In this document: piece by piece, positions 289-21,315 of the stretch
How positions within the stretch are numbered: the stretch's first letter is position 1
Layout: each line of letters begins with the position of its first letter
DNA from: a virus
DNA: 21,315 bases
Virus record (IMG/VR): IMGVR_UViG_3300005516_000009
Coordinates: 1-21,315 of that record
Direction: 5' to 3' (one strand)
Translations under genes and position numbers: made by a program
Notes under the pieces: model-generated
The model's database searches: none
Told to the model about the DNA's origin: nothing
Seen by the model: the letters and a program-made list of their open reading frames with translations, nothing else

Positions 289-1272
289 TTATATAAAGGA
301 ACCATCAAATCCAAAGTCATCACCATCATCTATAAAGACATTATCTTCAACGGTAATAGTCTTAACCTCACCACCTAACAAGTGAGAAGCAATTGTAGTA
401 GCGTCTTCACCACGTCTTACATGTATCTTATTACCAGATTTGGAAGTAACATAAAGTTGTTCCCCATCAATATCAAGACGAGTGTCTTTTGTAATGGAGG
501 AAGCATCAACCACTTCAATAACCTTATCTGTTAAGGTAACATCTTTGGCAAGATTAGTTACAACATTACCGTTATAATCCTTGAGTGCTCTTGGGACAGT
601 TTGATAAGTAACATCTCTAACATTCTTGGCTCCCTTATCTCCAGAATAGTAAGAGATAGAAGCCTTCTTGATGATATCCTTCGTAGCAGATGTAGTAGGA
701 CCAAACAGATATGTTTTAGCTGTAAATCTTAAAGTATATAAAAGAACTCTACGAGAACTAAAATCACCTTCATAATCATCCTGCATAGTGATATTTTCAA
801 GAACTATAGGAACATCTCTTTTCTCTTTTAGTTCTGATACCAATTCAATTGTTAGATTATAAGAAGGTTGGAAGTATGGTAATATTTGTTCAACAATCTG
901 AAGAGCATCATCATTTAACTTCGTCATAATACTCAATTCAAATTGCATATTATAAGGAACTGGCATATATGCCTTTTTAATTTCCTTACTATCTTCAGGA
1001 TCTGTTACAATAAATTGTTGAGTAGTTGATACCTTTCTACTAGCATCATAAGTTAATCCAACAAACTCAAAGGACATTCTCGGCAAAGTAATTGCCGTTG
1101 GCTTATTTAAATCTGGCGACTGCTCAATCCTAGCTAAGAATTTTTGAGTAGGTCCATAAGCTAATGGAACTCTTATTGTAGAATTTTCTTGTTTAATGGT
1201 AATATCATTAAACAGAGTACCAAACCCTATAACAGTCCTTCTCAATATTTCGTTATAAAAATACTCAAACAT
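289..1272 (-). CDS. 15: gp15 proximal tail sheath stabiliser / tail terminator
   Basis: A 327-residue protein beginning MFEYFYNEILRRTVIGFGTL, the typical start of T4-like gp15. T4 gp15 (about 272 residues) forms a hexameric ring that caps the finished tail and docks it to the neck. Residues 1-240 look like the conserved core, including RVPLAYGPTQKFLARI (34-49), MPVPYNMQFELSIMTK (103-118) and RRVLLYTLRFTAKTYLFGP (174-192). Residues 244-304 are a separate beta cassette (IDGEQ, then VRRGEDATTIASHLLGGEV) that also occurs in both giant proteins of this block. The protein ends in an acidic Gly/Phe tail (DDGDDFGFDGSF). Its gene follows gp14 after 40 bases and precedes gp16 by 6. AGGTTAGGAAG lies immediately upstream of the ATG and gives a plausible ribosome site. 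Confidence 0.9.
   Translation of the reverse strand: MFEYFYNEILRRTVIGFGTLFNDITIKQENSTIRVPLAYGPTQKFLARIEQSPDLNKPTAITLPRMSFEFVGLTYDASRKVSTTQQFIVTDPEDSKEIKKAYMPVPYNMQFELSIMTKLNDDALQIVEQILPYFQPSYNLTIELVSELKEKRDVPIVLENITMQDDYEGDFSSRRVLLYTLRFTAKTYLFGPTTSATKDIIKKASISYYSGDKGAKNVRDVTYQTVPRALKDYNGNVVTNLAKDVTLTDKVIEVVDASSITKDTRLDIDGEQLYVTSKSGNKIHVRRGEDATTIASHLLGGEVKTITVEDNVFIDDGDDFGFDGSFI
361..543 (-). repeat. Arg-Gly/His-Gly cassette in gp15
   Basis: Residues 244-304 of gp15 fit the pattern (I/V)(D/G)xE, then about 12-20 residues to VxRG, then T, SH and GxxV. The same pattern occurs in the giant protein at 13737-21315 (its residues 39-95 and 1590-1657, counted from the ATG at 21251) and, more diverged, in the 2,498-residue protein (residues about 2092-2155). 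The cassette replaces or extends the C-terminal region beyond the gp15 core. Confidence 0.6.
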
Positions 1273-1312: not shown

Positions 1313-2737
1313 TTAGGGTATTCCAAATGGATTTGCTTCTGAGAAATCTAATATATCATCTGCAGAAACTTGAATATTCACATTATCAGCAAATCCATCA
1401 TCAACAGGATTAACATCTACTACCCTGAGTGCATGTGATGCACCTGATGTTGACCCGACAATCATTTCCTCTTTAACAAATATACCTTTTACTGAAGCAA
1501 TTTCCATTTGATTTGTAGTAGAATTCCAAGTCCTAAGTCTTGCCGTTGCTCCACTGACAGATCCTGTAATTACTTCATTAAACACATAATCTCCAGTAGA
1601 ATCCATATTTGGAGAACCGATACTAATAGTTGGTGCTACAGTATAACCAAGTCCTGCATTCTGTATGTGAATAGCCGTAATAATACCAACACTACTTACT
1701 AGTGCAGTTGCTGCGGCTGATACTGTGGATAATCCCGTAAATGTAATAGGTGGATTTGTAATATATCCACCACCCCCACCAGTGACTGTAATAATACCAA
1801 CTACACCGTCTCCAATGAATGCAGTTCCAGCAAATCCTACTCCACTATCACTACTAACTTTTATTGATGGTGCTAAAGTATAACCAGCTCCAGCATTTAC
1901 CAAATTAATTTCTTGAACTGACCTAGTTGCTGGATTGATACTCTTATTACACACAACAATACCACCAATTAATACTGCAGATCCAATACCTGTTATACCA
2001 CTAACTGGTGCTGATGAGAACCCAACAGAAGGTGATCCAATGTATCCACCACCCCTATTAGAAATGGTTACATATTTAATACCACCATCAACAATATTTG
2101 TTATAGCAGTTGCAGTAACACCAGTTCCAACAACAGATAAAGTTTGAGTATGCCCTTGAATGGTATTGATACCATCTTCGGTTAATCCATCAAGGTCATC
2201 CCCAACCAAAACATTATCAATCTCTTCTATTCCAGTAGCAATAACCTCATCTTCAACTCTGAAGAGTTCGCAGGTTAATTCATAGACATATAAGTCTTGG
2301 AGTTGATAATATGGTTTAGCATATTCAATATCTTTAACTTCATACACCCTATCATCAAGAGGGAACCAAATTAAATCACCAGTTTTAGGTCTTGTAGATA
2401 ACTTGATATTAGTCTGATCTTCTATTAAAGGGGAAATATAGTTCTCAAAACGTTCTCTTGAAATAACCAATCTAACTTCATCTTGAGATTGAATACCAAA
2501 TTTTGAAAGGATAGTTCCAGCCCCAGCATATTCATCAAAATTATCCACATAAGCTTCAAGTGGAAGCGCCATATCAAACTTAGATTGGACAACCTCCCTA
2601 AGAACAGTTTTTTCTGTTATATACTTTCTTGGAATATAGAAAATATCAACTCCATACATCCTCAACTGTTCGTTGATAAGATCCTGAACTAGACTCTGCT
2701 CAGATTTAGTACCTTGAGTAAAAAATGGATTTAACAT
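1313..2737 (-). CDS. 14: gp14 neck protein, enlarged by repeat insertion
   Basis: A 474-residue protein starting MLNPFFTQGTKSEQSLVQDL, with YGVDIFYIPRKYITEKTVLR (28-47) and SRERFENYISPLI (93-105), characteristic of T4-like gp14. T4 gp14 (256 residues) joins gp13 to complete the head and form the neck to which the tail attaches. Residues 1-200 resemble the conserved part: GDLIWFPLDDRVYEVKDIE (120-138) and YQLQDLYVYELTCELFRVED (144-163). Residues about 200-375 are an inserted Gly-rich region with four copies of a Gly-Tyr/Pro repeat. They are followed by two SGATA cassettes (387-404 and 423-442). A conserved-looking tail, ADDILDFSEANPFGIP, closes the protein. The gene starts four bases after the gp13 stop with AGGTTGA overlapping that stop. 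The length well above T4 gp14 is explained almost entirely by the insertion. Confidence 0.88.
   Translation of the reverse strand: MLNPFFTQGTKSEQSLVQDLINEQLRMYGVDIFYIPRKYITEKTVLREVVQSKFDMALPLEAYVDNFDEYAGAGTILSKFGIQSQDEVRLVISRERFENYISPLIEDQTNIKLSTRPKTGDLIWFPLDDRVYEVKDIEYAKPYYQLQDLYVYELTCELFRVEDEVIATGIEEIDNVLVGDDLDGLTEDGINTIQGHTQTLSVVGTGVTATAITNIVDGGIKYVTISNRGGGYIGSPSVGFSSAPVSGITGIGSAVLIGGIVVCNKSINPATRSVQEINLVNAGAGYTLAPSIKVSSDSGVGFAGTAFIGDGVVGIITVTGGGGGYITNPPITFTGLSTVSAAATALVSSVGIITAIHIQNAGLGYTVAPTISIGSPNMDSTGDYVFNEVITGSVSGATARLRTWNSTTNQMEIASVKGIFVKEEMIVGSTSGASHALRVVDVNPVDDGFADNVNIQVSADDILDFSEANPFGIP
1613..2077 (-). repeat. Four Gly-Tyr/Pro repeats inside gp14
   Basis: Four protein-level copies of xIxIxNxGxGYxxxPxIxI lie at gp14 residues 221-242, 275-296, 313-335 and 353-375, which correspond to 2012-2077, 1850-1915, 1733-1801 and 1613-1681. 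Cores are NRGGGYIGSPSVGF, NAGAGYTLAPSIKV, GGGGGYITNPPITF and NAGLGYTVAPTISI. They are separated by Gly/Ala/Val-rich linkers and look like a small beta-rich repeat domain. The same motif recurs in both giant proteins. Confidence 0.8.
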
Positions 2738-2741
2738 ACTA

Positions 2742-3587
2742 TCAACCTATCATATCAAATGGAGGAAGTTCATAAGTATTAGACATTTTCTCCATAATCA
2801 ACTCAATTTCTCTTTGAGCGTCATCATATATCTGTCTTCCATTTAATTCAATACCACCAGGAAGTTTTACTCCTTGGAACTTAATCAAGTTCTGCCCCCA
2901 CTGACGCTTAATCAATGCAGTAACATATCTCTTCAAAAATGAATCATTCCAAACTCTTGTAAAGTCATTGGGGTCTAAAAGTCTATAACAATCTATAACA
3001 AAATAAGTATCCTTACTTGCATCACCCCAATCAATATCCAAATATAATCTATCTTGTCTTTGATTAAATCTTATTTGCTTCTGAGTATTGAGCAAGAAAT
3101 CCATATCTTCTAGATATGTTTTTGTTCTTGTATAAGTCAGTAACTCAGTTGTTCCCCAATAATAAACATCATTTAAGAACATCTGATATTTCACACTAAA
3201 CATATTATTAGTTGCGGTCATATTACCGTCATACTTAAATATTCTAGTTATTCCAATAATTTCTGGTGGAACTTGAATATAGTTACTATTCTCTTCAAAT
3301 GAAAATGTCTTAACATCTCCATCAATTGTAGCACTTGCAGTAGTAGTAACTATACCCGCACTATTACTTCCTGCTGGACCTCTGCCCCTATCAATATCTT
3401 CTTGAGTTATCTTATATTTAAGTAATGCTTGTGTTACTCCATCAAAATGCCTTTCATGGAAAAATTGCAATGCATCATCTATAAGATCATCAACCTGCTC
3501 GTCAGCAACATTAATCTCTAATACTGGAGCTCCCAGTTGTCTTTTGCAGTAGTTTACTAGATCTTGCCTACTCGCTGGTTGTGCCAT
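2742..3587 (-). CDS. 13: gp13 neck protein
   Basis: A 281-residue protein starting MAQPASRQDLVNYCKRQLGA and continuing APVLEINVADEQVDDLIDDA, a strongly conserved opening of gp13 in marine T4-like phages. T4 gp13 (309 residues) binds the filled head at the portal vertex and, with gp14, makes the neck. Other typical segments are FFHERHFDGV (42-51), QVPPEIIGITRIFKY (105-119), LYLDIDWGDASKDTYFVIDC (181-200), the basic and aromatic segment SFLKRYVTALIKRQWGQNLI (216-235), and LPGGIELNGRQIYDDAQREI (242-261). Unlike gp14 and gp15 next to it, it carries none of the shared beta cassettes. The 25-base gap upstream has no strong ribosome site, but an NATAAATA octamer lies at its edge. gp14 follows after four bases. 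Confidence 0.93.
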   Translation of the reverse strand: MAQPASRQDLVNYCKRQLGAPVLEINVADEQVDDLIDDALQFFHERHFDGVTQALLKYKITQEDIDRGRGPAGSNSAGIVTTTASATIDGDVKTFSFEENSNYIQVPPEIIGITRIFKYDGNMTATNNMFSVKYQMFLNDVYYWGTTELLTYTRTKTYLEDMDFLLNTQKQIRFNQRQDRLYLDIDWGDASKDTYFVIDCYRLLDPNDFTRVWNDSFLKRYVTALIKRQWGQNLIKFQGVKLPGGIELNGRQIYDDAQREIELIMEKMSNTYELPPFDMIG

Positions 3588-3609: not shown

Positions 3610-3617
3610 TATTTATG
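3610..3617 (-). promoter_or_regulatory. Possible T4-type late promoter octamer before gp13
   Basis: The minus strand reads CATAAATA here, one base from the T4 late consensus TATAAATA and matching the NATAAATA form described for cyanophage late genes. It overlaps the end of the 213-residue gene and lies 22 bases upstream of the gp13 ATG. In AT-rich DNA such an octamer can occur by chance, so the call rests on its placement ahead of a core late gene. Confidence 0.35.
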
Positions 3618-4254
3618 GTGCGGATGATATACCAGGATAAACATAAATGTTTCCATCAACAATTTTATAAATGGTTGACGCAGTACCTACTCTTGTAAAG
3701 GTAACTGCTGTTCCTGGAAGAACTGATGATGCAATTGTGGAAGCAGTTCCAATAGTAATAGTGCTAGATGCAGTTGTAATACCAACTACAGAAACATTAG
3801 TAATACCTGCTCCAACAGACATTGAATCTCCAATAGCAACACTACCAACTTTATTGAGAATAAATGAAGTATTACCAACACTCACTGTTTGCCCTACAGC
3901 AACAGATGTGTCTAAAATAGATTTTGTTTCTTTATCACCAGTCAATAAAACATCAAAATAATATCTACCATATCCAATATCTGTAGTAGAAGAAGCATCT
4001 AAAGATATATTAAATTTACCAGCAGAAGCATTTGGGAATCCAACTGTAAATGTCTTCAAAGCACCTGATGTAGAACCAGTGCCAATACTCTTTCTCAATT
4101 GAGCAGAACCAGTATATCCTGTCAAGTCATATGCAGAATTTGAAGTATTTAAAACATTAAAATTGGTATTAAAGTTTGCTCCAGTATAGAGACTTAAACT
4201 AGCACCATATGGTACTCCAGAATCTGGGTCAAATGTGATGTTTTTTGTTGCCAT
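3613..4254 (-). CDS. Virion structural protein with BppU-like N-terminal domain
   Basis: A 213-residue protein. Residues 20-113 resemble the small beta-sandwich found at the start of baseplate/fibre-type proteins (BppU-like): YDLTGYTGSAQLRKS (42-56), a middle strand KFNISLDAS (80-88) and GYGRYYFDVLLTG (94-106). The closing strands YKIVDGNIYVYPGIS (196-210) would complete the fold. Between them, residues about 115-194 form a Val/Gly/Thr/Ser-rich insertion (VGSVAIGDSMSVGAGITNV, then TITIGTAS and GTAVTFTRVG). Related proteins that I remember beside gp13 in cyanophages are shorter and lack a segment this long. A baseplate or fibre role is inferred from fold resemblance and position only. The ATG overlaps the stop of the upstream 59-residue gene by one base (TAATG), which implies coupled translation. 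Confidence 0.6.
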   Translation of the reverse strand: MATKNITFDPDSGVPYGASLSLYTGANFNTNFNVLNTSNSAYDLTGYTGSAQLRKSIGTGSTSGALKTFTVGFPNASAGKFNISLDASSTTDIGYGRYYFDVLLTGDKETKSILDTSVAVGQTVSVGNTSFILNKVGSVAIGDSMSVGAGITNVSVVGITTASSTITIGTASTIASSVLPGTAVTFTRVGTASTIYKIVDGNIYVYPGISSAP

Positions 4255-4433
4255 TATTCTTTAGGTACTCCAATCATTTGTAATACTTCCTGTTGTTTTA
4301 AATAAAGTTTGCAATAAACTTTACTAACATCTCTAAGAATTTCAATATCATCAATATTATCTATCTCAGAAGCTTGTTTAATATACTCAAAACTTTTATT
4401 TAGATTATCTAATGTAATGCTATCAGGATCCAT
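4254..4433 (-). CDS. Small conserved-type protein of unknown function (59 aa)
   Basis: ATG at 4431-4433, stop TAA at 4254-4256. The product begins MDPDSITLDNLNKSFEYIKQ and ends LYLKQQEVLQMIGVPKE. It is acidic in the middle (EIDNIDDIEILRD), predicted helical, and has one Cys and no membrane segment. It resembles small proteins encoded next to gp13 in marine T4-like phages, whose function I do not know. Reality of the gene is well supported: an AAAGGAG ribosome site lies seven bases upstream, its start overlaps the 72-residue gene by 11 bases, and its stop shares one base with the next start (TAATG). Such tight packing suggests production in step with the 213-residue structural protein. Confidence 0.82.
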   Translation of the reverse strand: MDPDSITLDNLNKSFEYIKQASEIDNIDDIEILRDVSKVYCKLYLKQQEVLQMIGVPKE

Positions 4434-4641
4434 TTAATAACTCCTTTAGTAATGATTTTATTTCACTAATGTCGCTTTTCATATTAGCAACTTCATCTTC
4501 TATATTTTGAACCTTTTCCACTTTTTGTTTTTTTAAGTTACGGGAAATAATGTATTTTTTATATTCAGATTTATTGGTATTAACTATTGAATTAGTATCA
4601 GGATCTTTTACAAAATCCTGATGATCTTTTATTTTCTGCAT
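4423..4641 (-). CDS. Small coiled-coil protein (72 aa)
   Basis: A charged 72-residue protein. Residues 1-40 are basic and include DFVKDPDTNSIVNTNKSEYK (9-28), a pattern I recall from small proteins in the same place of other marine T4-like phages. Residues 44-70 form a coiled coil with hydrophobic positions I47, V51, M54, I58, I61, L65 and L68 in regular 4-3 spacing. This predicts a short parallel helix bundle, possibly an oligomerisation or scaffold element. It starts two bases after the stop of the giant DUF4815 gene, without a clear ribosome site, so it is likely translated by coupling. Its last 11 bases overlap the next gene. No function can be assigned from sequence. Confidence 0.75.
   Translation of the reverse strand: MQKIKDHQDFVKDPDTNSIVNTNKSEYKKYIISRNLKKQKVEKVQNIEDEVANMKSDISEIKSLLKELLNGS
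4441..4447 (-). promoter_or_regulatory. Ribosome binding site of the 59-residue gene
   Basis: Minus-strand AAAGGAG, seven bases before the ATG at 4431-4433 and inside the coding region of the 72-residue gene. It is the best Shine-Dalgarno match I found in the window and decides the start of the 59-residue gene. Confidence 0.75.
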
Positions 4642-13736: not shown

Positions 13737-16700
13737 TTAAGTATATCCTTTATACCTAAGAGGTTTTAATCTACTTATATATGATGAAGTTGAGAGTCCA
13801 ACAACTCCTTGGTTAGTATATGCAGGATATTCAACAGCTTTAGATCTAACCCTACTAATAATCTTACCCCAAGAATAGTCACCAAAATCTGGTTGAACTG
13901 TGGAACCTATCCCCACACCCTGATTGTCAGTTACACGACAATTGACTCTTTTTATATAAGTATTACCAATTCCTGGGTGAGATATTAATTCATTTGAGAA
14001 ACTATCCACATAATAGATATTATCCATATAAGAAATACCTATTCCAATAGTATTACCAGCAGTATCTAATGATGTCATTGTTGTTGCAGCAATTCCAACA
14101 TTTGAACGAGAAACAACAAATACATCTCCAGTACTAATACCAGATATTGTTGAAGCAGATGAGACTAAGCTAATATCTCTCAAATCAGATTCTAATGGTA
14201 TATGCAAATCAAACCATACTTTATTAGCACTACCAACTTTTGTTGTTCCAAAACCAACTATTTTACCATAATCTCCACTATATGTAAAGACAGTAATTGG
14301 TTCAGTACCATACTCAGGTGTTGAAATAATAACTTGTGGTATTGATGTATAATTGGTTCCAAGACCAGTTAATGTTATGGAAGTTACAACTCCAGCAGTT
14401 ATTGCTGCTGTTGCTGTTGCTGTGCTTCCATATCCAACAGGATTACCAATGATAACTGTTGGAGCAGTCTCATACCCCTTACCACCATCACTAATAACAA
14501 TTGATGTTATGTTGGAAGAAACACCAACAACAGCAGTAGCAATTGCAACAACATTATCATCTTTATTTTTTGATATTGTAACTTCATTTTGGAAAATAGT
14601 ATCATCTGGATCCTCATTTAGAGGGTTGAAAAATGGTCTTACACTATCAACATATATTATTGTAGCTCCAACTCCAACAGTACTTGTTACATAAGAGAAA
14701 GAATGAATAGAAGGTTCATATATTTCTCTACTCTTATCAACAAAAACACCATTAATAACTCTATCTTCAGTTTGTCTAGTCCAAGTAACTGGTCTCTTCA
14801 ATGTTTCGTCTTGAGTTCTTCCTGGACCAAAATATGGTTCGCTACTAACAGTATCAATTGAACTAAGTTCAAAAACATTTCTATTTTCTTCATCCAAGAA
14901 GAAACTTTGGCCAATGGTAGAATCATTTTCAATATTTAAAATATCACCAACTTTCAAGGTTTGAAGAATCTCAATTGCTTTAACGTCAACTCCTATTCCA
15001 CTTCCTTTATAGAACATAATACCACATGTATCTCCAAATTTAGGTGCCTCACTAAATGATATTAAACTACCACCAGTAAAGGAATAACCTTCACCCGGAA
15101 CTTGAAGTACACCATTAATAAAAATTATTAGAGTATCTTGCAGTTTAATAAAAGATGAACTGGTATCAACAATATATGGATCATCATTTTTTCTCATCAC
15201 AAATGTTTTGGTACTACCATTAAATCTCCCACTTATATTATCAATTATATCAAATTCTCCCATAGTAAATGCACTAAATGTATCATTATAAACATTATCT
15301 ACTGTAAGTTGGAACTCATTAGGAGTAAACTCATCATATGATGAAGTTGTAGGTATACCAATAGTTCCTCCAACAGATACTGATATGGTATCTCCTTGCT
15401 TATAACCATAACCAAAGTTGGTAAGCTTATATTCAATAACACTAGAACCTTGCCCAACAACAATATCTACCTTTGCACCAGTACCAACACCAGAAGTATT
15501 TGGAACTATATTGGAATAGGATAGTGGTGAATCAAAAACTACCGTAGGCACATTGGATCTTGTATATCCAATTCCAGGATTAGTAATAGCAACGCCTATA
15601 ATATTACCATTACTTACTGTAGCAACTCCAACTATTTCAATATTGGGAATCCCATTACTAAAAGTTTGGACTCCAACATTAACAGTTTGAATTCCAGATC
15701 TATATCCAGATCCACTATTTCCTATACTTATTGATTCAATAGTTCCAGCAGCAGAAACAACAGAAGTAGCACCAGCAGCAACTAATGGCATATATCCATA
15801 TCCTCCTGTAAAGGATGTTGAAACAATCCTACCACCTATTGGAAGAGATGTTGTATTTGGATCACTGGTAATAGAAGATGCAGTTCCACTAAAAGTAATA
15901 GTAGTAGCAGAACCTACTTCTCCAACAGTAAAGTTATTCTTAGTTCCAGTAAATCCAGGAATCTGAGCAATACCATTAACCAATATAACTCCCTCAGTAA
16001 AACTACTAGTAGTATCAATACCAGCAACTTTTAAATTGAAATATTCCTGCTGTGCATCAAACTGATCAGAAATATCATCAAAAAGCATATTTCTAGTATA
16101 AGTTTCATCAGAACTATCAACAGCACCAGTACGTAAGAACACTCTTCCATGGAAAGTTGATCCACTAGTAATTCCTACCCAATCTCTTTCATCAGGATTA
16201 TTATAACTATGAGAAAGTGGTTGTTTTCCTACAGGTGCATCTGCAAATGATATTGTACTACCATTAATAGCATAATCACCAACCATTTTTGTAATTACAG
16301 AACCAATTCCACTAGCGTTGTGTTGAGAAAGACCTGTTCCCATCCACCCTCTATAAACACTTATATTACTACCACTAATACCATTTACACGCATAATTTC
16401 ATCACCAATCTTAATCAAATCCCCACTAAAGAGAGAAGAAGCTGTACCAACTACAATTGTATTATCTGTAAAATATACTGTAGATGTAATATGTGTTGTT
16501 ACAGCAGTTGATACGATAGGTGCTTGTACCATATTATCAACTGCTATCAAAGTTTTAGTATCTTTTTTCTTTGAAGTAAATGTGTGTATTCCAACTCCAA
16601 GACTTGTTATGTCTACTGCTATTGGACTATATGCTAAAGCATCTGCTGCTGTACGTGCAAATTTTATAGTACCATTATCATACTTAATAATATGTACGCT

Positions 16701-19700
16701 TGATGGTAATAAATCAGTAGATCCAAACCCTGTAAATGTTGTAGTACCAATACCAATAGCAGTTCCATTTGTAGGAACTGTGTAAGTAACTTCTTCACCA
16801 CTAACAAAGTAATGGTTTGGAATCTTAACTTGATCAGTTGATATATCAACTATAGTACTACTAGATCCAACAACACTTCTTGTGAATATCTCATCAGTAG
16901 CATATTTTAGTGGGAAATCTTTCTTTATTGCAACAATAGTACCTTCATAGTATCCAGCAAAAGATTGTATAGAACCATTAGTAAAGTCAATCTTTTCAGT
17001 TTGTGTTAATTCTTCATGAGTCCTAAATGCAGATGCGAAAACATTCACTTTAACTGCTGTAGATGCTATAGGGGTAAAATGTAAATCAATTGTATTAGTA
17101 ACTGAATTGTAACCAGAACCAAAAGTTCCTAACCCAATTGAAGTCTCTACAATACCAAATTCTGTATCATATGTAGCATCCAATCCAGATGAAGTATCAT
17201 GATCATCTACAACAACGACTTCACTAAACATAGTTTGAGTTCCAGTATGAACTTGAGCCATAAACCATGCACCATCATGATCTAATGGATATGAACAAAC
17301 TGTAGTAATTCCAGGACTTCCTGATGAACCGATTACAGTAGATTGTGTTTTAAGTTGTTGATATGCGAATCCAAGAGTAGAAATTCCTGCAGTAGTAGTA
17401 TTTCCAACTCCAATTGTAATAGTATTAGCATATGCAGTGGTTCCTATTCCAACACCAGAACTGGGATAAAAATCAACATTAATATTACTACCACTATAAT
17501 ATGCATGATATGTTCCTAACCCAGCATTATAACTACTTGAATCATCTGTATTCAATCTTCCATATTCAAGAACATTTATATCTGTACCATTGTGTGTGAT
17601 ATTTAATTGATTATACTCATATTCTATTCCATAAGAATCTGCTGCTATCTGAACAATAACTTTTAGGGAAGAATGGTAACTTGAAATTCCAACAATTGTT
17701 GTAGAACCAGTGCCTACTATAGCACTACTAAATCCAACACTATTGGAGGTAATGAGAGTATCTCCAACAGAAGTGCTTCCAATACCTAATACTTCCCTAT
17801 CCAAAACAAATTCAAGTACTGAAACTTGATAGTTATTATTAGAATAATTTGTTGGATAGAATCTCACTTCCCCAGTTTGTAAAGCTTTATCAACTACAAC
17901 ATCAAGTGATCCCAGATCACCTATTGTACCAACTGATGCATATTGATTGATAAATGCATCATCATTATCATGAATAACATCACAAATCATTAACTGACGT
18001 TCAGAAGTAAATCTAGTATCTCTAATAAATGTTATATATTTTTGAGCTCTATGATCTGTTGAGTCAAAATCATGAATTTTACTATATTTTTCTGGTCTGG
18101 GATTACTATCAAACTGATCAGCAATATTATCTATTGAAAGTACCCTATTTCCAACAGATTCAATATAATCATCAAGAATTTTACTACCAAAAGTTATTCT
18201 ATTGGAATATAACTTTCCACTAACACCACCAAAACCACCATGTAAAGAATTTTCAGTTACAAGATCAAAATCATAAACAGTATGAAGACTAATATTTTGT
18301 GGAATTTCTGAAGTAACCTCAACATCAGCATGAGTTTCTGCAGCCTGTGTGAAATTAATGCTAGTAGTACTCTCTAATTGATAATCTGAGAACCTTTTAA
18401 ATCCAAGTGTATGGCTTAAACTAGAAACAGGGATATTCCAGGTCTCATAAGGAATGTTAGATTTTAATGTATATGAGAAATTCTGATAATACCAACTATC
18501 TTGAAGTCTTTCTGAGTTTAAATTCAGAATTCCAGTAGTTCTATCAACACCTTTCTTTATTTTAGAAACAGCGTCAAGATTCAGTAAAGATTCATATGCT
18601 GTTATAGTAAGAGCTTTACTCTGTTTCTTAGAAGAGAGACCTTTAATAATTTTACCTTTAACAAAGAAAGTATTAGAAGAAACTCTAATAATACCAGATT
18701 TGGCGTCCCAAGTATTGACCAATCCAGTTATTTGATTTCCAGATACATCAGTTGAAGTAACTGTCTCACCCTGAGAGTATGCAGCATCATTAGTAATAAC
18801 CTCAAATAATGGGAAATCCTTTACATTAATAATTCTTCCTGAGGAATTCTGAGAATCATATTCTCCTGGATAATTAGTGCCGAGAACATCAGTCATATCG
18901 TATGATACATCACCAATTCCACCAAGATTTGGTGTAATTGCACTGACTTCGAAGAACTTATAATCATAACCTTCACAGTTATATCCAGGAGCAGTTGATC
19001 CAACTCCTACACTAAGATTCTCAACAAGAACCTTATCCCCTATAGCAAATGGGAATCCTTGAGCAACACTAAATCCATAATTTAAAGTAGCTTTTACAAC
19101 TTTTGTAACTGGATCATAAGTTATTGATGAAATTCCAACTCCATTAGAATTTTCTATGGGAACAACAGTTGGATACCTATTACCAATACCATAAGAGTTC
19201 TTAAGAATGGTTACTTGAGAATCTCCAAATTTGTAAGTTAAATCTACATCATCAATAACAGTTTGTGTGCCTGGATCATAACATAATAATTTTGGAGGAG
19301 TAGTATAACCCTTACCAACAGATGTTATTCCAATAGATTCAATAGAATATAATGGTTCAATTAAAATATTCTGGTTCAGAAGAACAGATGGTTTTAAAGT
19401 TTGATCCGATGGGAAATCATATCCAATATCATTAATATTAACTCTCTGAACCTTTCCTATTGAACTACTTCCGGCAGAAACAGCAGCACCAGTACCAAGA
19501 CCACTACTCACTTCTACAATCTGAGGAAGAGAATAGAAATTTCTACCCCTATTAGTAATCTCAAACTTTGTGATTTCACCAAAAGCATTTGTAGAATTTG
19601 TCTTATAAGAAATAGTTGATGTACTACTCTCATATAAAGATGCTTCTGGTTTATTGTCTATTGTATATGTAAATGTTGAATCATTGGTGGGGTATATTAA

Positions 19701-21315
19701 ATATTTACCATTATACAAACTATTTTTTACTTCAATACCATTTTGATTATAAACCTCATAATCAATAATAAGTTCTTCCTTTTCTATGGGAAGATTGCTT
19801 TCATATATTGGGGTAAATTTGTAGAAAAGTTTTCCTGGTGCTGTTGAATTGATTGATAAAGTTAAAGTTGCATCAGAATCTACACCAATCTTTCCATTTC
19901 TAGTAACTTTAAAACTATCATCATCAGGAGCTTTATCCCACTCCTTAGTCATAAACTCATCACTGTATATCTTCATAGTAAAAGCAGAATAATCTGTTGG
20001 TCCTACAACATAAGATAAACTAGAATCTGAAAGATTAAATGTAATAGTACTATCCCTATAGACAGTTAATGGGGGATTGACTAAAGAAAGAGTTCCACCT
20101 TGAAGTGGTGCTTGGAGATTTGTAAATATTGGGGTGTTTGAAGTTGAGTCATAACGAGTACTTGATAATCTAAAGTTGTCCTCATCTACCTTATAAACAT
20201 AATAAAATGTATTATCTGCCAATCCAGTAGTAGGTGATGTTGCTGTATGAAGAACTTTATCTCCAGTTACAAATCCATGACCAGTAATCTCAATGGTATC
20301 AGTATCAACTGTTATTCCACCACTTACAAAATTCTTAGGATCAAACACCATCCTTCTATTAAAATCATCATATTTAACCACAACTGTTCTAGTAATTGAT
20401 GGGTTTACATCAATAACAACATCATCTCTAGCGCTAAGACCATGAGTTGATGCTGTTGATACTGTTACAATATTTCTAGAAAGATCTGCAAATATTGGAG
20501 TAAATGTATTCTTAATACTATGATAAACACCAGTTCCTATTCCAGTAAAGTATAATACTCTAGAATCTGCATGAGCACCTAATCCTACATATTCTCCTGT
20601 GGTATTGCTAAGTCCAACTCTTGTTGTAGATAATCCAAGTAAATCATCACTTATTCTAGCAACATATAAGGTAGAGTTATCTGCCAATGTAATCGGAGTA
20701 TTTGCTATAGTATTACCAGTATATTCTCTAGCTTTGAGGCCTCCACCATTTCCAGAATCATACGTTACTTTATCACCAGTCAATAAGTTATGACTTGGAA
20801 TATAAAGAGATCCATCAGGAATATCAATAGTTACTCCAATTCCAATAGTTAATGGAGATCTTCCACTAGTAGAAGTTCCAATACCAACTGTAGTTTCTGG
20901 TTCAAAATATAATTGCCTATTTCTTCTATTAATAGATGTTGTTTTAATTCCACTATCAATAATCAATCTTCTAGGATCTTCTATAAGAGTAGTACCTACA
21001 CTATGTGAAGTACCTACTGTATTATCAACAGCTCTAAGAACTCTAATTTTTGACTCTGATTCAAGTACATTCAGCACTCTTACCCTTTCAGAACCAACTT
21101 TAAGAATATCATTTTCTTTAATATAATCAGAATCTATATTTCCACTAACTGAAAAATGAGTAACAAATCCAGTAACAGCAGTACTACCTACTGCTGTAGT
21201 TGAAGGCCCTGTAGCGATTAGATTCAAAATATTTGAACTAATCCCAGCCATATGGAAACCTTCTAATCCAGTTGTAGTTGTAGATACTCCAGATATAAAG
21301 ACAAGATCAGTATTT
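13737..21315 (-). CDS. Giant repeat-cassette virion structural protein (5' end beyond right edge)
   Basis: An open frame of at least 2,525 codons that runs to the window edge. The first ATG is at 21251, but 21 further codons upstream stay open and read like the same protein (VFISGVSTTTTGLEGFH), so the true start is probably outside. Numbering from that ATG, the protein is a chain of Gly/Val/Ser/Thr-rich beta cassettes: Arg-Gly cassettes at 39-95 and 1590-1657; His-Gly/Thr-Gly-Asp cassettes at 151-210, 321-365 and 1476-1538; Gly-Tyr/Pro repeats at 563-660, 1839-1961 and 2249-2312; NGVxQxPG cassettes at 1563-1677, 1723-1792 and 1999-2084. It ends with SWGKIISRVRS and RLKPLRYKGYT. I saw no catalytic motif or membrane segment. 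Similar proteins near gp8 in cyanophages are annotated as virion structural proteins; a fibre or baseplate-associated role is inferred. It is clearly not T4 gp7 or gp10 by anything I can see. Confidence 0.8.
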   Translation of the reverse strand, partial: NTDLVFISGVSTTTTGLEGFHMAGISSNILNLIATGPSTTAVGSTAVTGFVTHFSVSGNIDSDYIKENDILKVGSERVRVLNVLESESKIRVLRAVDNTVGTSHSVGTTLIEDPRRLIIDSGIKTTSINRRNRQLYFEPETTVGIGTSTSGRSPLTIGIGVTIDIPDGSLYIPSHNLLTGDKVTYDSGNGGGLKAREYTGNTIANTPITLADNSTLYVARISDDLLGLSTTRVGLSNTTGEYVGLGAHADSRVLYFTGIGTGVYHSIKNTFTPIFADLSRNIVTVSTASTHGLSARDDVVIDVNPSITRTVVVKYDDFNRRMVFDPKNFVSGGITVDTDTIEITGHGFVTGDKVLHTATSPTTGLADNTFYYVYKVDEDNFRLSSTRYDSTSNTPIFTNLQAPLQGGTLSLVNPPLTVYRDSTITFNLSDSSLSYVVGPTDYSAFTMKIYSDEFMTKEWDKAPDDDSFKVTRNGKIGVDSDATLTLSINSTAPGKLFYKFTPIYESNLPIEKEELIIDYEVYNQNGIEVKNSLYNGKYLIYPTNDSTFTYTIDNKPEASLYESSTSTISYKTNSTNAFGEITKFEITNRGRNFYSLPQIVEVSSGLGTGAAVSAGSSSIGKVQRVNINDIGYDFPSDQTLKPSVLLNQNILIEPLYSIESIGITSVGKGYTTPPKLLCYDPGTQTVIDDVDLTYKFGDSQVTILKNSYGIGNRYPTVVPIENSNGVGISSITYDPVTKVVKATLNYGFSVAQGFPFAIGDKVLVENLSVGVGSTAPGYNCEGYDYKFFEVSAITPNLGGIGDVSYDMTDVLGTNYPGEYDSQNSSGRIINVKDFPLFEVITNDAAYSQGETVTSTDVSGNQITGLVNTWDAKSGIIRVSSNTFFVKGKIIKGLSSKKQSKALTITAYESLLNLDAVSKIKKGVDRTTGILNLNSERLQDSWYYQNFSYTLKSNIPYETWNIPVSSLSHTLGFKRFSDYQLESTTSINFTQAAETHADVEVTSEIPQNISLHTVYDFDLVTENSLHGGFGGVSGKLYSNRITFGSKILDDYIESVGNRVLSIDNIADQFDSNPRPEKYSKIHDFDSTDHRAQKYITFIRDTRFTSERQLMICDVIHDNDDAFINQYASVGTIGDLGSLDVVVDKALQTGEVRFYPTNYSNNNYQVSVLEFVLDREVLGIGSTSVGDTLITSNSVGFSSAIVGTGSTTIVGISSYHSSLKVIVQIAADSYGIEYEYNQLNITHNGTDINVLEYGRLNTDDSSSYNAGLGTYHAYYSGSNINVDFYPSSGVGIGTTAYANTITIGVGNTTTAGISTLGFAYQQLKTQSTVIGSSGSPGITTVCSYPLDHDGAWFMAQVHTGTQTMFSEVVVVDDHDTSSGLDATYDTEFGIVETSIGLGTFGSGYNSVTNTIDLHFTPIASTAVKVNVFASAFRTHEELTQTEKIDFTNGSIQSFAGYYEGTIVAIKKDFPLKYATDEIFTRSVVGSSSTIVDISTDQVKIPNHYFVSGEEVTYTVPTNGTAIGIGTTTFTGFGSTDLLPSSVHIIKYDNGTIKFARTAADALAYSPIAVDITSLGVGIHTFTSKKKDTKTLIAVDNMVQAPIVSTAVTTHITSTVYFTDNTIVVGTASSLFSGDLIKIGDEIMRVNGISGSNISVYRGWMGTGLSQHNASGIGSVITKMVGDYAINGSTISFADAPVGKQPLSHSYNNPDERDWVGITSGSTFHGRVFLRTGAVDSSDETYTRNMLFDDISDQFDAQQEYFNLKVAGIDTTSSFTEGVILVNGIAQIPGFTGTKNNFTVGEVGSATTITFSGTASSITSDPNTTSLPIGGRIVSTSFTGGYGYMPLVAAGATSVVSAAGTIESISIGNSGSGYRSGIQTVNVGVQTFSNGIPNIEIVGVATVSNGNIIGVAITNPGIGYTRSNVPTVVFDSPLSYSNIVPNTSGVGTGAKVDIVVGQGSSVIEYKLTNFGYGYKQGDTISVSVGGTIGIPTTSSYDEFTPNEFQLTVDNVYNDTFSAFTMGEFDIIDNISGRFNGSTKTFVMRKNDDPYIVDTSSSFIKLQDTLIIFINGVLQVPGEGYSFTGGSLISFSEAPKFGDTCGIMFYKGSGIGVDVKAIEILQTLKVGDILNIENDSTIGQSFFLDEENRNVFELSSIDTVSSEPYFGPGRTQDETLKRPVTWTRQTEDRVINGVFVDKSREIYEPSIHSFSYVTSTVGVGATIIYVDSVRPFFNPLNEDPDDTIFQNEVTISKNKDDNVVAIATAVVGVSSNITSIVISDGGKGYETAPTVIIGNPVGYGSTATATAAITAGVVTSITLTGLGTNYTSIPQVIISTPEYGTEPITVFTYSGDYGKIVGFGTTKVGSANKVWFDLHIPLESDLRDISLVSSASTISGISTGDVFVVSRSNVGIAATTMTSLDTAGNTIGIGISYMDNIYYVDSFSNELISHPGIGNTYIKRVNCRVTDNQGVGIGSTVQPDFGDYSWGKIISRVRSKAVEYPAYTNQGVVGLSTSSYISRLKPLRYKGYT
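14316..14507 (-). repeat. Gly-Tyr/Pro repeats, C-terminal cluster of the right-hand giant protein
   Basis: Residues 2249-2312 (from the ATG at 21251) contain VISDGGKGYETAPTVIIGNP and TLTGLGTNYTSIPQVIISTP, separated by a Gly/Thr/Ala linker. This is the same repeat and linker arrangement as in gp14. Confidence 0.7.
15000..15257 (-). repeat. NGVxQxPG cassette, third copy
   Basis: Residues 1999-2084: IDNISGRFNGSTKTFVM, then LIIFINGVLQVPGEGYSF, then SLISFSEAPKFGDTCGIMFY. It parallels the copies at 15876-16085 and, interrupted, at 16215-16565. Confidence 0.6.
15369..15737 (-). repeat. Gly-Tyr/Pro repeats, middle cluster of the right-hand giant protein
   Basis: Residues 1839-1961 contain three copies with cores ISIGNSGSGYRSGIQTVNV, VAITNPGIGYTRSNVPTVVF and YKLTNFGYGYKQGDTISVSV. 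The middle copy keeps the Pro position; the outer two keep the N/G and GxGY part. Confidence 0.65.
15876..16085 (-). repeat. NGVxQxPG cassette, second copy
   Basis: Residues 1723-1792: LFDDISDQFDAQQEYFNL, then GVILVNGIAQIPGFTG, then TTITFSGTAS. It matches the third copy in order: a DxIxxxF opening, an NGxxQxPG turn and a TIxFS strand. Confidence 0.55.
16281..16484 (-). repeat. Arg-Gly/His-Gly cassette, internal copy
   Basis: Residues 1590-1657: TVYFTDNTIVVGTASSLFSG, LIKIGDEIMRVNGISGSNIS, then VYRGWMGTGLSQHNASG. It is the clearest match to the gp15 cassette and sits between two halves of an NGVxQxPG-type cassette. Confidence 0.65.
19272..19565 (-). repeat. Gly-Tyr/Pro repeats, N-terminal cluster of the right-hand giant protein
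   Basis: Residues 563-660 contain FEITNRGRNFYSLPQIVEVS, a degenerate middle copy VNINDIGYDFPSDQTLKPSV, and IGITSVGKGYTTPPKLLCY. The first and third keep the G-x-Y/F and Pro positions. Confidence 0.6.
20157..20801 (-). repeat. His-Gly/Thr-Gly-Asp cassettes of the right-hand giant protein
   Basis: Residues 151-365 contain IPSHNLLTGDKVTYD followed by LYVARISDDLLGLSTTRV, and IEITGHGFVTGDKVLHTA followed by FYYVYKVDEDNFRLSSTR. A degenerate STHGLSARDDVVIDV lies between them at 268-282. A fourth copy lies at residues 1476-1538 (IPNHYFVSGEEVTYT, then IIKYDNGTIKFARTA). Confidence 0.6.
20967..21137 (-). repeat. Arg-Gly/His-Gly cassette, N-terminal copy
   Basis: Residues 39-95: ENDILKVGSERVRVLNV, KIRVLRAVDNTVGTSHSVGT. 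This is the gp15-type cassette with Ala in place of the Gly of RG. Confidence 0.55.

Follow-up and report, generated by a model that had tools for sequence, protein, structure and literature searches.

The gp14 gene and its parts

The 21,315-base window analysed here is an entire virus record (IMG/VR IMGVR_UViG_3300005516_000009) and holds, on one strand, a run of T4-type structural genes: a gp7-like gene open at the window end, gp8, a gene for a 2498-residue protein, two small open reading frames (ORFs), gp13, gp14, gp15 and the start of gp16. The same gene order is found in S-SM2. Our subject is gp14, which sits between gp13 and gp15 and whose product was best matched by those of Bellamy and S-SM2, with 61-62% identity across full gp14. 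We concluded that the window comes from a T4-like cyanophage near to these two phages.

gp14 is a T4-type neck protein. Residues 1-168 matched Pfam T4_neck-protein (3.8e-27, 95.8 bits at a cut-off of 25), and matches to phrog_460 (head closure Hc2; 5e-121) and, by sequence, to T4 gp14 (9.6e-24) were obtained as well. The core had the fold of T4 gp14 (VIA-align Z 11.6, 135 aligned, 5.7 Å; Foldseek 1.5e-9), and structure comparison also matched it to neck proteins of other phages. The original prediction, made from the DNA alone, had described an enlarged gp14 with an extra beta region between a conserved N-terminal part and a conserved tail. This was borne out: the protein has 474 residues versus 256 in T4, the N-terminal part is the one recognised by Pfam, and the tail profile was found in nearly all relatives (see below). 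The repeat units were located with a hidden Markov model (HMM) of 28 residues, for which 293 distinct units were taken from relatives 450-500 residues long. The following parts were distinguished.

1313..2737, minus strand: gp14, head closure Hc2 / neck protein, 474 residues (Pfam T4_neck-protein, phrog_460, T4 gp14 fold)
2210..2737, minus strand: gp14 ring core, residues 1-176 (core profile)
2090..2209, minus strand: residues 177-216, a linker followed by strands 197-203 and 210-216, with which a small beta barrel begins (DSSP on the full-length model)
1583..2089, minus strand: GxGY repeat array, residues 217-385 (four HMM units; AlphaFold2 model of 216-388)
2009..2089, minus strand: GxGY unit 1, residues 217-243 (31.8 bits with the unit HMM, as for the next three)
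1850..1924, minus strand: GxGY unit 2, residues 272-296 (31.2 bits)
1733..1813, minus strand: GxGY unit 3, residues 309-335 (27.9 bits)
1610..1687, minus strand: GxGY unit 4, residues 351-376 (34.1 bits)
1406..1582, minus strand: SGATA/SGASH beta-barrel part, residues 386-444 (barrel profile)
1316..1405, minus strand: C-terminal anchor peptide ILDFSExNPFG, residues 445-474 (anchor profile)

The GxGYxxxP motif occurs at residues 229, 283, 322 and 362. Four motifs were reached in none of 2000 shuffles of the same protein (mean 0.037), and the unit HMM detected exactly four units, all within residues 217-376. Four repeats of the form NxGxGYxxxP had been predicted at 1613-2077, which corresponds to residues 221-375; their number stood, and every unit has the leading N except the third, which reads TGGGGGY. 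Two SGATA cassettes had been placed in the same stretch. One reads SGATA (residue 395), the other SGASH (residue 431), and both lie outside it.

The unit HMM also matched other proteins of the window, with four units in gp7, one in gp8 and one in the 2498-residue protein (independent E-value below 0.01), at a control rate of 3 such matches in 1800 shuffled proteins. The gp7 and gp8 of S-SM2 carry GxGY units as well. The unit is thus common to several virion proteins of the phage. No curated Pfam domain for the repeat was found in 71 gp14 arrays, and the repeat alone gave nothing at E<=10 by phmmer against the PDB. NtrZ, CBM_2 and InlJ_IG, considered as identities of the repeat, appeared as single weak rows and were judged to be chance matches.

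The array among gp14 relatives

Two scans of IMG/VR yielded 134 gp14 sequences, of which 122 were distinct and 109 of these complete. The parts were counted by profiles, as a regular expression could not parse 20 of the 109 sequences. The core profile was present in all 109 complete distinct relatives, the C-terminal anchor in 108 and the barrel in 103, some of them without repeats. The number of units was 0 in 11 relatives, 1 in two, 3 in six, 4 in 78, 6 in two, 8 in four, 9 in four, 10 in one and 11 in one, and clustering at 90% identity into 90 clusters left this range unchanged. A region held by all relatives as an essential part of the ring, the outcome that would have spoken against an added domain, is not what the survey returned: many relatives lack the array. 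Since the middle of the protein varies from nothing to 11 units, we regard the array as an optional insert of variable length. The length of gp14, 201-952 residues across the survey, depends for the most part on how many modules stand at this one place. The longest arrays, of 10 and 11 GxGY units, occur in proteins of 950 and 952 residues (contigs L028 and L123).

Among named cyanophages, four units were counted in S-SM2, four in P-SSM2, eight in S-CAM9, seven in S-PRM1 and three (two of them weak) in S-MbCM7. The gp14 proteins of S-SM2 (481 residues), P-SSM2 (470), S-CAM9 (657), S-PRM1 (656) and Bellamy (483) share core, units, barrel and anchor with that of the window phage and differ from it in unit number. 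The enlarged region is therefore real but not peculiar to the window phage, as the records of S-SM2, P-SSM2, S-CAM9 and S-PRM1 carry the same. Many records already label gp14 a neck protein or head closure Hc2, and the repeat architecture is visible there. The literature searched, which consisted of open-licence papers partly available as text, gave no description of gp14 repeats; the terms gp14, neck, wac and fibritin do not occur in the available text of PMC3037559. In 71 sequences of the commonest class (33-79% identity to the window) many of the Gly, Tyr and Pro residues of the units were invariant or nearly so.

No GxGY unit was found in gp14 of T4, RB43, Va3, M21a, AB2I2 or Syn19. T4 gp14 (PDB 9mkb, 9lu4-9lu7) has the same ring core and also a C-terminal tail after it, but it is shorter and matches neither the unit, the barrel nor the anchor profile. 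The tail of T4 gp14 (L056 5926-6696) closes with NNRGKSFESSPFDNDFMD, a stretch resembling a single degenerate unit plus a PF[DG] end similar to NPFG; the tails of other Straboviridae gp14 have similar endings by eye.

Evolution of the insert

Across 70 relatives the core had a median rate of nonsynonymous substitution (dN) to the window of 0.265; the anchor stood at 0.311, the array at 0.435 and the barrel at 0.460. In the printed comparisons for which a synonymous rate (dS) was computable, dN was lower than dS, the identical core of contig L002 aside. Between about 4700 and 2196 the DNA of this contig differs from the window by a single base; from gp14 residue 181 through gp15 the identity is 76-94%, rising to 96-99% in the last 200 bases.

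2195..2196: border of identity with contig L002, at gp14 residue 181 (one upstream mismatch, 76-94% downstream)

Steps of this kind were also found within two pairs of relatives, one with 100% identity in the core and 91.7% in the insert (L012/L014), the other with 90.2% in the core, 81.3% in the insert and 93.4% in gp15 (L133/L137). Most of the 44 close pairs showed no step in identity between core and insert. These data suggest occasional exchange at the core/insert border, a pattern that chimeric metagenome assembly could also produce.

Predicted structure

The full gp14 was modelled by AlphaFold2 from 71 sequences with a mean predicted local distance difference test (pLDDT) of 75 and a predicted template modelling score (pTM) of 0.49. 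Ten-residue blocks of the array reached pLDDT 83-93 in this model, except one block at 58. Residues 216-388 alone gave pLDDT 90.4 and pTM 0.82, so the array is predicted with confidence as a separate domain when modelled alone. It had been considered that residues 200-445 might pack into the gp14 core; the modelled array folds confidently without the core, and contact with the core was not measured in the model. Weak VIA-align rows aligned 63-68 residues across 194-444 with the barrels of EF-Tu and eIF2-gamma. Because these rows span 194-444, the strands near 197-216 and 389-441 would close one barrel around the array.

Similarity to domain I of the tail sheath protein gp18

When the array was compared with the PDB by VIA-align, the first four rows were all T4-type tail sheath gp18: 3foa at Z 5.9 (2.7 Å, 73 residues, 20% identity), 3j2m at 5.7, 3fo8 at 5.7 and KP1 9ev2 at 5.2, with 15-20% identity in the gp18 rows. 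The aligned parts lay in, or came from, domain I, and among the matches listed the domain I of T4 and KP1 gp18 was the only one above Z 5, the next row being a filamin immunoglobulin (Ig) domain at Z 3.3. Domain I is described in the available text of PMC3004832 as inserted in domain II, protruding from the tail and making no subunit contacts; its binding partners are the baseplate and, once retracted, the long tail fibres. The substitutions G106S, S175F and A178V inhibit fibre retraction (PMC3004832).

Domain I of T4 gp18 has the motif PGSNY where the gp14 array has GxGY, and gp18 of Aeromonas 44RR reads EGQGY at that place. Counted from where the alignment starts, at residue 6 of the model and 99 of gp18, G229 falls on G107 and Y232 on Y110, if the alignment is ungapped and Met is counted. 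The published G106 would be the motif Gly, residue 107 with Met, because the T4 sequence indicates that the published numbering omits the initial Met. Among 75 gp18 sequences, 65 had the domain columns, and G107 and Y110 were each kept in 62 of these. Ten entries were without the columns, the truncated L202 among them; as some gp18 lack these columns, domain I is an optional insert as well. Short T4-like sheath proteins of 503-599 residues without domain I were seen in virus contigs L215-L217, L219, L224, L225, L227, L229 and L230.

In profile comparison by hhalign the whole array scored 22.0 against domain I, versus 17.05 for the best of 40 column-shuffled controls and at most 14.4 for other parts of gp18. 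The Pfam model Gp18_dom_I (PF22639) detected T4 but none of five cyanophages above its cut-off; below the cut-off it gave matches in three of the five cyanophage records (E 0.003-0.007; GDGYKVGD, GENYKVND, GEDYDKDD) and also in two of 14 control genomes. We concluded that the gp14 array is probably a fold relative of gp18 domain I. It is called a relative and not a member because the evidence of kinship in the sequences is weak. The two probably agree in fold, and they share the GxxY motif and optional insertion into the carrier protein; domain I differs in being a single module on the sheath, with low profile similarity to the array. Proof of kinship by sequence was rejected as a claim: the profile test was in register and lay above shuffles, but it was not significant alone, and the matrix test failed.

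Similarity to the Dpo31 tailspike

The array profile matched residues 408-511 of Dpo31 with an hmmsearch E-value of 5.4e-5, in and next to the part called D3*. The available text of PMC13317679 describes D3* (434-536) as an Ig-like domain that protrudes from the tailspike and is distantly similar to sugar-binding domains. Dpo31 was absent among the matches listed in the structure comparisons of gp14 and of the array. At the level of sequence, where it was reached by the profile only, it is the best link of the array, and one that favours an adhesive role. D3* of phage Carin-1 resembles the array in its GxGY-type units by profile and as a protruding insert in a virion protein; it differs from gp14 in belonging to the trimeric tailspike of a podovirus and in being described as Ig-like.

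Fibritin and the partners of gp14

No wac gene had been recognised in this block, and the searches agree: Fibritin_C (PF07921) was found neither in the window, which is a fragment, nor in four complete cyanophages, with T4 as a positive at 2.3e-34. A collar role by homology to fibritin was consequently rejected and survives as a function only. Records under the names Synechococcus (378) and Cyanophage (61) in a phage collection contain gp14 and gp18. The ten names most frequent for fibritin (1428 records, with 28 for the last name listed) include neither of them, nor do the ten for domain I (1377 records, with 21 for the last name), few exceptions being possible in either case; the two lists of ten are otherwise nearly identical.

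In the available text of PMC12270204, T4 fibritin binds gp13 through domain III (190-239) of gp13, not gp14, and the T4 gp14 tail (178-256) is disordered before tail joining and binds gp15 203-245 in the virion. The counterparts of both partners flank gp14 in the window.

2742..3587, minus strand: gp13, neck protein (about 35 residues missing at the T4 fibritin-binding domain III, by alignment; the T4 match breaks between flanks)
289..1272, minus strand: gp15, the tail sheath stabiliser to which the gp14 tail binds in T4 (Pfam T4-gp15_tss, 3.4e-88)

Possible function of the array

We propose that gp14 of T4-like cyanophages is a modular neck subunit with an unchanged head-closure ring core. 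The C-terminal tail after the core should run onto gp15, as in T4, and would carry the small beta barrel in which the variable string of GxGY modules is inserted. Two GxGY units probably make up one module of about 90 residues, which gives two modules per gp14 subunit here; if gp14 is hexameric, as it is in T4, the head-tail junction would bear six short beta arms. The arms would neither form the ring nor gate the DNA. Exposed arms were preferred over a part of a DNA gate because core and anchor are constant and the middle is variable, because of its fast change and because of its fold. That the array forms optional, surface-exposed arms is likely. The best overall reading, to which we assign a probability of roughly 0.45, is that outward beta arms at the gp14/gp15 junction serve docking or adhesion; the hexamer, the outward position and the docking are all inferred. 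The arms most likely would offer an outward surface comparable to gp18 domain I on the tail shaft, and they may help to hold tail fibres at the neck in phages that have neither fibritin nor gp18 domain I. The resemblance to gp18 domain I and the lack of fibritin led us to rank holding or docking of fibres first, with glycan adhesion close behind. Holding of fibres in particular, in the manner of fibritin, is plausible, but we rate it as rather unlikely. The T4 fibritin (gpwac) collar with its whiskers is likewise a set of appendages at the neck, a likeness to gp14 arms that is proposed only; fibritin itself is a separate trimeric fibre on gp13 domain III, according to the available text of PMC12270204, unlike an array within gp14.

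Several results weigh against outward docking arms related to gp18. The array alone gave nothing against the PDB by Foldseek at E<=0.001, its Z of 5.9 with gp18 is below 8 and in a range that may mean a mere common arrangement, and the pTM of full-length gp14 is just 0.49. The hhalign probability against domain I was 14.6% at best (E 0.0019), and a deeper gp18 set lowered it to at most 5.7%, with a score of 18.7 versus 15.4 in controls. With an ungapped unit matrix gp18 did not score above its shuffles, and Pfam Gp18_dom_I was found in none of the 71 gp14 arrays at E<=1. Furthermore, Syn19 has neither the array nor fibritin nor domain I, so that nothing has to replace fibritin; no other result speaks as strongly against the need for a substitute.

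The array could alternatively be an adhesin-like decoration with weak binding of host or environmental glycans, as proposed for Ig-like phage domains, and unrelated to tail fibres. Its fast evolution and the presence of the same units in gp7 and gp8 would fit, and the available text of PMC10491603 describes in the Milano collar a decorating domain similar to glycan-interacting proteins. The neck is, however, far from the baseplate, the carbohydrate module at the neck-fibre end of Anabaena phage A-1(L) did not bind the host (PMC10966104, as far as its text is available), and the sugar binding of D3* is a weak similarity with a DALI Z of 2.9 in the accessible part of PMC13317679. We consider decoration of this kind possible but rather unlikely. 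A purely mechanical role is unlikely too: the array would strengthen the head-tail joint by packing on gp15, on the first sheath ring or on the extra domain of gp15, and would have no outward function. The binding of the T4 gp14 tail to gp15 (PMC12270204, available text), the extra C-terminal domain that gp15 has here after the T4 contact region, and the divergent segment between window and L002, which runs from the gp14 insert through gp15, are consistent with it. Yet 0 to 11 units occur on a constant core, P-SSM2 has four units without the gp15 extra domain and Syn19 the reverse, and in L133/L137 the insert differs (81%) while gp15 is alike (93%). We hold it highly improbable that the array is a neutral or nearly neutral expansion of repeats without function, tolerated in an exposed loop. 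Presence and number do vary widely, Syn19 and 11 of the 109 relatives having no units, but the Gly, Tyr and Pro of the unit are nearly or fully invariant across the commonest class, 78 of the 109 relatives have kept four units, and dN was below dS in the comparisons mentioned above.

Outward docking or adhesive arms remain our preferred reading. The cyanophages tested are without the whiskers of T4, and the gp14 array is a precise candidate for fibre handling or decoration of the neck. One kind of beta module would link three virion sites, namely neck, sheath and tailspike. It is conceivable, as a speculation that we rate as improbable, that a single fibre-docking beta module is shifted among the virion proteins of T4-like phages: the enterobacterial ones would carry it on the sheath, as gp18 domain I, together with fibritin, and many marine cyanophages, having neither, would bear extendable strings of it on gp14 in the neck ring and on the wedge proteins gp7 and gp8 of the baseplate, with the neck ring as the collar.

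Neighbouring genes

The extra C-terminal domain of gp15 (292-531, residues about 248-327) is present in S-SM2, Syn19 and S-CAM9 and absent in T4 and P-SSM2. A link between array and extra domain was considered and dropped, as it is broken by P-SSM2 and Syn19 among the six phages aligned. A stretch similar to the extra domain was noticed by eye in gp7.

13737..21314, minus strand: gp7-like baseplate wedge protein, at least 2525 residues, open at the window end (phrog_2885; four unit-HMM matches and one barrel-HMM match)

The gp7-like protein of S-SM2 has 4156 residues. Just before gp13, where T4 has wac, the window has two small ORFs (3613-4254 and 4423-4641). One encodes a 213-residue protein with matches to phrog_1084 and to phrog_3304 (L-shaped tail fiber assembly); the 72-residue product of the other is a virion protein by phrog_473.
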